From the NCBI GenBank assembly GCA_025924315.1, contig JAICIO010000014.1:1-64000 (forward strand): DNA of 64,000 bases, written 5' to 3'. Under the pieces are notes generated by a model. The model was not told the DNA's origin, made no database searches, and worked only from the letters and a program-made list of their open reading frames with translations. Shown piece by piece: positions 12,782 to 64,000 of the stretch. How positions within the stretch are numbered: position 1 is the stretch's first letter; each line of letters begins with the position of its first letter. Source of the stretch: Phycisphaerae bacterium. Lineage in GTDB: Bacteria > Planctomycetota > Phycisphaerae > Tepidisphaerales > Tepidisphaeraceae. Both the position numbers and the translations under genes were made by a program.

Positions 12782-12810
12782 GTAGGGCACCGGCTGGTAG
12801 CCCGTGCTAC
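12782..12810. repeat. Solitary REP-like hairpin with GTAG ends
   Basis: GTAG, then GGCACCGGCT, a GGT loop and AGCCCGTGC, then TAC. The stem has one mismatch. It resembles a single arm of the GTAG-headed elements elsewhere in the window. Confidence 0.6.
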
Positions 12811-12848
12811 TTTTTCTTACACGCCGCCTCGCTTACAACCTCCGCTTC

Positions 12849-14789
12849 ATGACTGAGGCGGAGGCTCTTGATCCCGAACGTTCGGCGCGCGCGTGGCTTC
12901 CCGCGATGTTGCTTATCGCGGCGGTGTTTGCGTGGGTGGCGCCGACGTTGTGCTGGCTCGAGTTCAACAATACGCCGGAAAACCTGAACGTCGCGACAGC
13001 TCAGGAGATGCGTCGCGGCGGGCCTTGGCTCGTGCCGAATCTGCAAGGGGAGCTGCGCGCGGCAAAACCGCCGCTCGCGGCGTGGATCACCGCGGCGCTG
13101 ATTCGGCCGGAGACGATGAAGACGATTTCGTCGCCCGATGCCCTCACGCGCAATCGTGGATTTATCGAGCTCGAATGGGAAACGCGCTGTCCCGCGCTCG
13201 TCGCGATGTGCATCTTGCTCGTCGCGGTCTTCGGGCTGGCGCGAACGCTCGGCGGCGACACGCTTGCGCTCGTGAGCGTCGCGATCTGCGGGACGAACTT
13301 CATGTTCCTGCGCTTCGGGCGGCTGTCGACGACGGACGTTCAACTTTCGCTGTGGGTGTCGATCGCCGACTGGCTCCTCGCGATCGCGATCATCCGCGGA
13401 CGGGCGTGGGTCGGCTTTATCGGGGCCGCGATTGCGCTATCGCTTGCGATGCTCGCGAAGGGCCCGGTGTGCCTGGTTCAATCCGCACTTCCCGTGGCGC
13501 TCTTTGCGCTCTGGCGCGGATGGAGCAATCGCAGGCACACGCTCGTCGCGACCGATGAAAAGCCGCGATCGCGTAAACTTCCGCTCGCGATCGGCATCGT
13601 CGTCTTCTTCGCTCTGGCGACGCCGTGGTTCATCTACGTCGCGATGAAGCACGACGTCATCCACATCTGGTACACGGAAGTCACCCGCGTGCACGCGCGC
13701 GATCTTCCGCCGGACCCGTGGTACATGTACTTCGTCATCTTTGCCTACATCGCGCCGTGGATCGCGTTCTTTGTCGTCGGATTGATCGTGCTCACGCAGG
13801 AAACCTTCGCGCCCGCCCGGCGCGCTATGCTTTCTCCCTCTCCCGGTACCCGGGGAGACGGCGGGGGTGAGGGTTCTTCTTTGGGGGCAATCGATCACCC
13901 GTCGCAGCACAACCCTCACCCTAACCCTCTCCCTGGAAGGGAGAGGGGAGAAGGCGCAAACGATGTGCTGGCTCTGTTCCTCGTCGTCGTCCCAATCGTG
14001 ATCATGTCCTGCGTTCGCGACAAGGAAGATCGCTATCTGCTGCCGATGATCGGCCCCGTATCGATCATCGCGGCGCGCGGGGTGATGGAGCATCTGAAGT
14101 CGTGGGCGCGGTGGAAATGGGAAGACACGCTCGTCGTCGCGCTACACTGGCTCGCGGTGGTCGTGATCGTGGTGGGGCTGCCGATCATTGGGTCTCTCAC
14201 GAGCAACAACGCGCAGCCGAAGAGCGCCGATCAGGTGTCAAGCGTGCTTCAGCCGGAGCAGTCGGGCAAGCAGGCGGAGAGATTCGCGGCGTTCAAGCGT
14301 GTCGATGGTTCGCCGTGGTATGAAAAGGAATTTGCCTATCCCGCTGCGTTCACGGCGCTCGTGCTGATCGGTTTTGCGATTTATCTCCATCGCATCTGGC
14401 GCGGGACGCTCGTGTTGGCGACGTTCATGTTGATGCTCATCACACAGGTGATCTTCATGGCCGGCTACGCACAGAGCAAACTCGGCCATGCCGAGACGCG
14501 TCCGCTGGCGGAGGGAATCGCGTCGCTCTATCCCGACGCCGAGGTGTACAACGCGCACCCCGAAGGAAAGCGTCCGCCATCGGATGTGGGGATTTATCTG
14601 AATCGTACGATTCCGTGGGTCGAGAACCCGGAGACGATCGCGCCAAGCAGCAAGCCGCAGATCCTGCTGATGCTGCAAAATGCCGGCGAGGCGGCGCCGA
14701 AGGCTCCGCCGGGCTGGGATCTGCTCGACGTCAAACCGCGCGACAAGGATTTCTGGTACGTCTTCGTGCGCACGCCGAAGGAAGGCTAG
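12849..14789 (+). CDS. ArnT-like membrane glycosyltransferase (GT39 family) with in-frame repeat insertion
   Basis: Polytopic inner-membrane transferase expected to move a sugar from a lipid-phosphate carrier to a surface acceptor. About ten helices can be seen. The first luminal loop has the family-type acidic/KPP region (ENLNVATAQEMRRGGPW ... ELRAAKPPLAAWITAAL), and a later loop has DLPPDPWYMYFVIFAYIAPW. Residues about 327-370 (SPSPGTRGDGGGEGSSLG ... NPHPNPLPGRERGEG) are encoded by a palindromic element at 13831-13953 that keeps the frame open, lengthening a loop between two helices. The start at 12849 is chosen over GTG 12804, which lies inside a REP-like hairpin. The methyltransferase gene follows after 4 bases. 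Confidence 0.85.
   Translation: MTEAEALDPERSARAWLPAMLLIAAVFAWVAPTLCWLEFNNTPENLNVATAQEMRRGGPWLVPNLQGELRAAKPPLAAWITAALIRPETMKTISSPDALTRNRGFIELEWETRCPALVAMCILLVAVFGLARTLGGDTLALVSVAICGTNFMFLRFGRLSTTDVQLSLWVSIADWLLAIAIIRGRAWVGFIGAAIALSLAMLAKGPVCLVQSALPVALFALWRGWSNRRHTLVATDEKPRSRKLPLAIGIVVFFALATPWFIYVAMKHDVIHIWYTEVTRVHARDLPPDPWYMYFVIFAYIAPWIAFFVVGLIVLTQETFAPARRAMLSPSPGTRGDGGGEGSSLGAIDHPSQHNPHPNPLPGRERGEGANDVLALFLVVVPIVIMSCVRDKEDRYLLPMIGPVSIIAARGVMEHLKSWARWKWEDTLVVALHWLAVVVIVVGLPIIGSLTSNNAQPKSADQVSSVLQPEQSGKQAERFAAFKRVDGSPWYEKEFAYPAAFTALVLIGFAIYLHRIWRGTLVLATFMLMLITQVIFMAGYAQSKLGHAETRPLAEGIASLYPDAEVYNAHPEGKRPPSDVGIYLNRTIPWVENPETIAPSSKPQILLMLQNAGEAAPKAPPGWDLLDVKPRDKDFWYVFVRTPKEG
13831..13953. repeat. 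Palindromic repeat inside the glycosyltransferase gene
   Basis: Pyrimidine/purine-rich arms (CTCCCTCTCCC ... GGTGAGGG against CCCTCACC ... GGGAGAGGGGAG). Same family as 62329-62466 and 39798-40030. It contains no stop in the gene's frame. Confidence 0.85.
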
Positions 14790-62322: not shown

Positions 62323-62328
62323 TCTGAT

Positions 62329-62466
62329 CCCCTCTCCCTTCCAGGGAGAGGGTAAGGGTGAGGGTTCGGCGTGGTGGATCAGATCGCGTTTGATTTGCGA
62401 ATTAACGACGTGCGACTTCGAACGGTTCACCCTCACCCCAACCCTCTCCCTCAAGGGAGAGGGGGG
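62329..62466. repeat. Palindromic repeat, 'cctctcccttccagggagag' family
   Basis: Left CCCCTCTCCCTTCCAGGGAG then AGGGTAAGGGTGAGGGTT; right AACCCTCTCCCTCAAGGGAG then AGGGG. It lies between convergent genes and is the same family as the in-gene element 13831-13953. Confidence 0.88.
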
Positions 62467-62474
62467 AAGAGTGG

Positions 62475-63380
62475 TCACGCCGGCGCGTTTGCCCGATCGA
62501 CGTCAAAGGCGCGGCGGCCTCTCACGATGAACCCCTGCTGATTCTCCTTCTTCGCCTGCTCCATCGCGGCGGCGGAGGCTTTGCGTTTGTCGACGCTCGT
62601 CGCGGTGACGACGACGTAATCGTTGGCGGCGCGGTAGCGGTGGATCATGACCGGTCGCGAAGCTTTGGAGAAGTTTGACTTCGATCCGTGCACCGTTTTC
62701 ACGTGGAAGAAGATCGCGTCGCCGGCTTTTCCGGTGATCGGCAGAGCGCGCTCCCACGGCCATTCGTGTTCATCGAGGCCCAGGTGCGATGACGTGTCGA
62801 TGTGATCGAGCACGCCGAGGCGATGCGTGCCCGGAATCACGTGCAACGCGCCGTTGTTCAGATCGGTATCCACACAATAGTTGAGCACGCCGACCGGGCC
62901 TTCGTAGCGGTGCTCGAAGTAGGCGACGTCCTGGTGCAGGTTCTTCGCATGCCCGCCCACGGGTTCCTTGTAGAGGCACTGGCCGTCCATGAACAGCTCG
63001 ACGTCCGCGCCGAGAATGCCTTCGACGATGTCGAGACATTTTTTATCGAGCGCGGACATGAACGCGGCGGCGGAATTCTTGTATCCACAAGCGAGCACCA
63101 TGATCTGCTTGTCGCGCGAGAAGCCCTTCGGCGCGGGAATCCACAACGTGTGGTCGGGCGTGACCCATCCTTCCGGCGTCTTCACCGCTTTGTCGTAAAG
63201 CGCGAGCGCCTCTTTCGCGGCGAGCTCGATGTCCTGGCGGATGCGCTCGATGTACGGTGACATGAGCCCGCGGACGACAAGCGCGCCGTGCTCTTTGTAG
63301 ATGTCGGCCGCTCGTTTGGGGTCCAAACGATCGGCGAAGACTTCAAGGTCATTTACGGTTACGGTGTTGGCGGTGGTCAT
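62475..63380 (-). CDS. Phytanoyl-CoA dioxygenase (PhyH)-family Fe(II)/2-oxoglutarate oxygenase
   Basis: A 301-residue cytoplasmic oxygenase. The iron-binding H-x-D is in NLHQDVAYFEHRYEG (about residues 151-153), the distal His in KTVHGSKSNFSKASRPV (about 230), and the 2-oxoglutarate Arg is close by. It starts MTTANTVTVNDLEVFADRLD; ATG 63380 has GGAGG 5 bases upstream, and a TTG precedes it. Substrate unknown; its place beside glycosidase genes makes a sugar-linked or secondary-metabolite substrate possible but unproved. Divergent from the gene at 63457. Confidence 0.88.
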   Translation of the reverse strand: MTTANTVTVNDLEVFADRLDPKRAADIYKEHGALVVRGLMSPYIERIRQDIELAAKEALALYDKAVKTPEGWVTPDHTLWIPAPKGFSRDKQIMVLACGYKNSAAAFMSALDKKCLDIVEGILGADVELFMDGQCLYKEPVGGHAKNLHQDVAYFEHRYEGPVGVLNYCVDTDLNNGALHVIPGTHRLGVLDHIDTSSHLGLDEHEWPWERALPITGKAGDAIFFHVKTVHGSKSNFSKASRPVMIHRYRAANDYVVVTATSVDKRKASAAAMEQAKKENQQGFIVRGRRAFDVDRANAPA

Positions 63381-63424
63381 CAAATCCTCCGAACGGAGAT
63401 GGTATCAAGTGATTGCATTGCAAA

Positions 63425-63491
63425 GTAGCACGGGTTTTCAACCCGTGCATCGAATTATGAAACAGCTGCACGGGTTGAAAACCCGTGCTAC
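63425..63491. repeat. GTAG-headed palindrome, 'cacgggttttcaacccgtg' family
   Basis: GTAG-CACGGGTT-TTC-AACCCGTG on the left and its exact inverse ending in CTAC on the right. Same two-REP layout as the BIME-like elements but a different stem sequence. The centre contains the ATG of the next gene. Confidence 0.92.
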
Positions 63492-64000
63492 GGCTGTCGC
63501 TCTTGCGTTGCTCGTTGCTTTCGCGCTTCGAGCGGATGTGGTCACCGGAAAAAACGCACCGGAACTCGATCGCCTCGCGGCGAGCGAGCTCTCAGGCTAT
63601 CTGCAGAAGCTTTTCACGAACGACGCGAATGTCAGTTTCTTGGTTGGCAATCCGGAGACAAACAGCTCAATTCCGCGAGATCAGTTTCCGCAAGTTTCCG
63701 ATCAAGGAGTCGTCCTCAAATCAATTCAATTGAACGGAAATCCGGCGCTGATCGTCGGCGGCGGCAGCCCTCGGGCGACGCTCTGGGCGGTTTACGATCT
63801 CGTCGAGCGGTGGGGCGTGCGGTACCTGCTTCACGGCGATGTGCTGCCAGCGAAGCGCGCCTTTGAAGTGCCGAAGCTTGATGTCGTCGAAGAACCGACG
63901 CTCCGCGTCCGCCAGTGGCGCGTGCTGAACGAGCACGCGATGGGCCCGATCTCGTGGGGCATCGCGGATTACAAGCCGGTCATCGATCAGCTCGCCAAGC
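63457..64000 (+). CDS. Secreted GH67-N-like protein, 5' part, cut by window edge
   Basis: 181 codons visible. The ATG is in the centre of a palindrome; its right arm encodes QLHGLKTRAT, forming the basic n-region of the signal peptide, followed by the core AVALALLVAFALRA. The mature part has LASELSG-like start (LDRLAASELSGYLQKLF), IVGGGSPRATLWAVYDLVER then WGVRYLLHGDV. This is the pattern of the alpha-glucuronidase N-terminal (GH67-N/glyco_hydro_20b-like) domain. The catalytic domain lies outside the window, so the enzyme class is uncertain. Confidence 0.75.
   Translation, partial: MKQLHGLKTRATAVALALLVAFALRADVVTGKNAPELDRLAASELSGYLQKLFTNDANVSFLVGNPETNSSIPRDQFPQVSDQGVVLKSIQLNGNPALIVGGGSPRATLWAVYDLVERWGVRYLLHGDVLPAKRAFEVPKLDVVEEPTLRVRQWRVLNEHAMGPISWGIADYKPVIDQLAK

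Follow-up and report, generated by a model that had tools for sequence, protein, structure and literature searches.

In the window, i.e. the whole 64,000-nt stretch of Phycisphaerae DNA analysed here, a GTAG-REP inverted dimer is wedged between two closely spaced divergent genes, with its right end probably inside the leader of a secreted-enzyme gene, and there is good reason to think that bases of the repeat are translated into the export signal of that enzyme. As a whole, RAYT-type mobilisation would have placed the dimer between the divergent genes, its right end entering the leader. Translation would then begin within the repeat (at ATG 63457 or TTG 63475) or a little upstream of it (at GTG 63409), the contribution of the repeat would be either HGLKTRAT, as the basic n-region, or all of STGFQPVHRIMKQLHGLKTRAT, and the signal-peptide core right behind it would lead to export of the product. 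The features concerned are listed in Table 1.

Table 1. Position of the GTAG-REP dimer, the candidate start codons and the neighbouring genes in the window
Feature	Coordinates	Strand	Remarks
Divergent phytanoyl-CoA dioxygenase (PhyH) family gene	62475..63380	-	gene start 45 nt from REP dimer
Candidate start GTG, upstream of repeat, whole repeat translated	63409..63411	+	Shine-Dalgarno -6.6 kcal/mol (GGAG 63395-63398); opening 9.5-13.2 kcal/mol
67-nt GTAG-REP inverted dimer with outward GTAG ends	63425..63491	.	perfect 25-nt arms; ~60 genomic sites with like unit
Left REP unit GTAGCACGGGTTTTCAACCCGTGC	63425..63448	+	consensus matched exactly
17-nt spacer TCGAATTATGAAACAGC	63450..63466	+	differs among copies (no conservation)
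Candidate start ATG, in spacer, 1222-aa product	63457..63459	+	Shine-Dalgarno lacking (+0.6 kcal/mol); 28.6 kcal/mol to open
5' part of large, probably secreted protein: GH67-N-like region, then BNR repeats	63457..64000	+	weak Pfam matches, sub-cut-off
Right REP unit, left-unit sequence inverted	63468..63491	-	consensus matched exactly
Candidate start TTG, right arm, MKTRAT leader	63475..63477	+	no Shine-Dalgarno; within stem
Hydrophobic core of putative signal peptide, AVALALLVAFALRA	63493..63534	+	direct translation; hydropathy 2.98

The two arms of the inverted repeat (63425-63449 and 63467-63491) are complementary at 25 of 25 positions and enclose the 17-nt spacer. Since either arm can form a separate hairpin, GTAG-CACGGGTT-TTC-AACCCGTG, the element is a GTAG-REP inverted dimer. 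Its RNA form has a folding energy of -50.2 kcal/mol (z-score -10.2), and the chance expectation for its core motif in the window is 0.00 occurrences. ATG 63457 sits in mid-spacer between the perfect arms, just as an earlier note on this DNA had placed it, at the centre of a GTAG palindrome. From this codon, translation continues as KQLHGLKTRAT-AVALALLVAFALRA; the note had assigned QLHGLKTRAT to the right arm, which holds for HGLKTRA(T), whereas the earlier codons belong to the spacer or its border.

The genome, a draft in 262 contigs, gave 62 matches when searched with the DNA of the repeat, and the unit GTAGCACGGGTTNNNAACCCGTGC, with up to three mismatches, was matched 61 times per strand vs. 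0 for the reversed control. When the surroundings of the listed copies were fetched, 60 sites were counted, among which 33 dimers of 56 to 77 nt with opposed units and outward GTAG ends. Two subfamilies can be told apart by their inner sequence, GGTTTTCAACC and GGCTACCAGCC. This dispersal over some 60 genomic sites supports the description of the palindrome as a repeat of mobile type. Within the family, two further genomes (G001 and G020) also carry the repeat; it is absent from six other family genomes tested, while the genome of the closest orthologue gave no match. With about 60 sites in a draft of so many contigs, an assembly artefact at the focal repeat could be envisaged; yet the focal spacer is unique to this copy and the identical runs shared with other copies are of about 30 nt or less, i.e. 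short vs. usual read lengths, and an artefact is highly improbable.

Mobilisation of GTAG-type REP dimers is attributed to REP-associated tyrosine transposases (RAYTs). Ten matches to PF01797 (IS200-like transposase family) were found in the genome. The focal element resembles the REPINs or BIMEs moved by RAYTs in its two inverted units, its short spacer and the occurrence of Y1-type transposases in the genome but differs from them in that none of the ten PF01797 genes is flanked by the exact REP unit. One of them (L014, G000:C124:13242-15893; 1148 and 1818) is found between related GTGA-type hairpins, GTGACACGGGCTTTCAGCCCGTGC and GTGACACGGCCTTTCAGGCCGTGC, and this locus is a possible parent or sister REPtron of the repeat.

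Di Nocera et al. (2013; PMC3733652) reported GTAG-REP dimers from Verrucomicrobia, and Opitutus terrae is among the PVC bacteria in which they are known. The present repeat has the GTAG-ended palindromic unit of this family, many dispersed and mostly intergenic copies near 3' ends, and opposed pairing. It also shares with the published dimers the short hairpin unit, the short spacers, the location near ORF ends, the TAG used as ORF stop and the presence of some copies at N-termini, and differs from them in that the focal copy abuts a signal-peptide core. The string CACGGG of the focal unit has no occurrence in the main text of PMC3733652. Rickettsia palindromic elements (RPE), on the description given of them in that paper, are likewise palindromes read in frame in proteins, also at the NH2 end; their sequence and host are different, and here the frame is open through the repeat, whose translation is putative.

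Gene positions around the copies were obtained with our own simple codon-model gene caller. Thirty-six of the 60 sites are clear of called genes, 21 overlap a gene ending at the TAG of GTAG, and three lie inside genes. Many further genes stop at a distance of 2-22 nt ahead of an element, while 23 genes have their start 2-20 nt past one. Since the supply of stops by the TAG of GTAG has already been reported (PMC3733652), it is not new. Among the 60 REP sites (loci L072-L126), gene starts often come 1-13 nt past the CTAC end, mostly without a Shine-Dalgarno sequence; at some of these tight starts the upstream gene is divergent, so that translational coupling is impossible there. Right-hand units often carry ATG-CAC-GGG (MHGL..RAT) as well as open frames.

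Elsewhere in the window, a lone GTAG-REP unit belonging to the GGCTACCAGCC subfamily (12787-12810) is found just upstream of a predicted membrane-protein frame (12804-14789); because this unit includes the mechanically assigned GTG start at 12804, the true start is probably later. A second palindromic family, with CCCTCTCCCTT...AAGGGAGAGGG arms and 105 matches in the genome, fills a convergent-gene gap (62326-62467). Another copy of it (13911-13949, in the segment 13830-13960) is located inside the same open frame 12804-14789, that of a predicted membrane protein, where it is read in frame as MLSPSPGTRGDGGGEGSSLGAIDHPSQHNPHPNPLPGRERGEG and is apparently translated within the gene. Matches to Rfam microRNA families, far below their gathering scores, were rejected as palindrome artefacts.

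The frame from ATG 63457 has 1222 codons and ends at contig base 67125. Matches of its product to Pfam families are weak (to the N-terminus of GH67, E 0.007; to BNR repeats, E ~1e-6, just under the cut-off), and no match to the gene product was found among solved structures. The gene is conserved, judging by a relative in a Verrucomicrobiia genome (L041/G397), which is 67-68% identical over residues 201-1222, its contig being cut off at residue 201. The putative Sec signal peptide was judged by hydropathy and distant homologues. Hydropathy and inspection, rather than a trained predictor, gave Lys/Arg before the core, and A-F-A and R-A before DVV. Two distant homologues with ordinary short leaders (L023, MNLRAALLFVLVICASSLYGAE; L029, MRTLWMSLIVLAATVVATIGARAE) have their core at the matching place. 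A signal peptide and export of the gene product are predicted on these features.

Between the repeat and the core, which starts 1 nt farther on, there is no start codon; an exported product must therefore start in or before the repeat, and export would imply that codons of the repeat are translated. The first in-frame start past the repeat, TTG 63508, is already in mid-core. According to the earlier note, no other in-frame ATG preceded the core; the open frame in fact extends upstream as far as ATG 63301, which lies antisense to the PhyH-type gene. Besides this codon, the in-frame candidates are GTG 63409 and TTG 63418 before the repeat, and GTG 63445, ATG 63457 and TTG 63475 inside it, none of which combines a good codon with a good Shine-Dalgarno sequence. 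Scanning the + strand for promoters gave no hits.

Initiation at ATG 63457 in the spacer, with the right arm as n-region, was the reading of the earlier note, and its chances fall somewhat short of even. This codon is the sole ATG near the core and would give an n-region of about ten residues with Lys and Arg, which is normal; however, it lacks a Shine-Dalgarno sequence and lies in the loop of a hairpin of -50 kcal/mol with a 25-bp stem, where opening is harder than for 98% of 221 called genes. The predicted starts 1-7 nt behind other copies are equally occluded (24.7-35.6 kcal/mol) and mostly without a Shine-Dalgarno sequence, an arrangement that may be tolerated. As a case against ATG 63457, mRNA accessibility is weakened by these starts, and occlusion alone therefore leaves this codon possible.

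From GTG 63409, a credible if less probable start, the whole element would be translated in frame within an extended n-region (MIALQSSTGFQPVHRIMKQLHGLKTRAT-). The strength of its Shine-Dalgarno sequence is reached by 16% of genes here vs. 4% of random places; it lies outside the stem, with an opening cost (9.9 kcal/mol) easier than for 81% of genes, and REP dimers inside ORFs, coding for 20-30 residues, are already known (PMC3733652). On the other hand, GTG is a minority start here (44 of 316 called starts), the 10-nt Shine-Dalgarno spacing is long, and the n-region would reach 26 residues, vs. mostly 1-16 (by eye) in the clear signal peptides of the same loci. TTG 63475 is likewise viable, with a leader of normal shape, although its use is very unlikely. 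With two other viable starts, the identification of ATG 63457 as the start could not be upheld as such; leader shape and start codon put it slightly ahead.

Alternatively, the repeat may be extragenic, with translation from TTG 63508 or GTG 63538 and a product that has lost its leader and is not exported. Many REPs annotated at ORF N-termini may indeed be extragenic, the true start being downstream, as Di Nocera et al. warned (PMC3733652), and GTG 63538 is the choice of the crude gene caller; yet the codon model of the caller is blind to signal peptides, and a late start would truncate the good hydrophobic core of a protein whose homologues have leaders. Such a start after the repeat is improbable, and initiation in or before the repeat is preferred.

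The earlier note had also suggested that a mobile repeat here builds a secretion signal. Eight secreted-protein genes lie directly behind copies, and all have an ATG after the element: L081 (MRRVFFVTLILLASPVFA), L094 (MQNLLVVVSFFLTVTSLAAG), L124 (MMKKVCTFIAILAIGTTMA), L110 (MRNTRHNLLFVFILVLFG), L088 (MRVLILLLAFSIVAASSFAE), L113 (MKLLLALCSALCAASVVAAD), L107 (MKATVALAGLSLLSIFV) and L117 (MNHLRSSVFICGFLLFCSAIHA). Among the secreted-protein genes behind copies, the focal gene is the only one without such an ATG. Spacers vary among dimers, with an ATG on the listed strand in only 3 of 33, and the ATG in the focal spacer is private to that copy. Since spacers vary, few carry an ATG and eight other genes keep their own start, the building of secretion signals as a general trait of the repeat is not borne out, and its part in the focal leader seems to be due to chance placement and reading frame rather than to a function of the repeat family.

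Orthologues with a repeat-free leader were searched for in 26 family genomes, 397 class genomes and genome contigs, as well as in 384 + 320 genomes around the closest relative. The leader is readable in none of the three orthologues found in these genomes: the sequence of L041/G397 begins only at residue 201, L128/G769 (43%) has no leader at the matching place, its frame continuing upstream into other protein sequence, and L129/G983 covers the C-terminal half only. These searches brought up no repeat-free orthologous leader, so that the repeat may have replaced a native start codon, but this is unproven. Deleting 67 nt joins ATG 63399 to the core in frame (MVSSDCIAK-AVALALLVAFALRA), and deleting 63 nt does so for GTG 63409 (MIALQSR-AVALALLVA); shuffled flanks, however, join an in-frame ATG in 22% and any start in 42% of cases, so that this empty-site test was rejected as evidence of insertion. 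The frame of ATG 63399 now stops at the TAG of GTAG (MVSSDCIAK, then stop). That the REP dimer jumped into the leader, cut a native ATG 63399 frame, and gave a new start and basic n-region while export was kept is rather unlikely.

As a whole, the focal copy appears to be an isolated instance of something already known, with no new system revealed. The n-region of signal peptides tolerates many basic sequences and, if the repeat is translated, it would illustrate neatly how a REP element can contribute residues to a signal peptide. Start-codon calls beside REP elements need care, because right-hand units so often bring their own ATG and open frames. The TAG-stop part being already known, it is the tight gene starts behind REP copies that merit attention.
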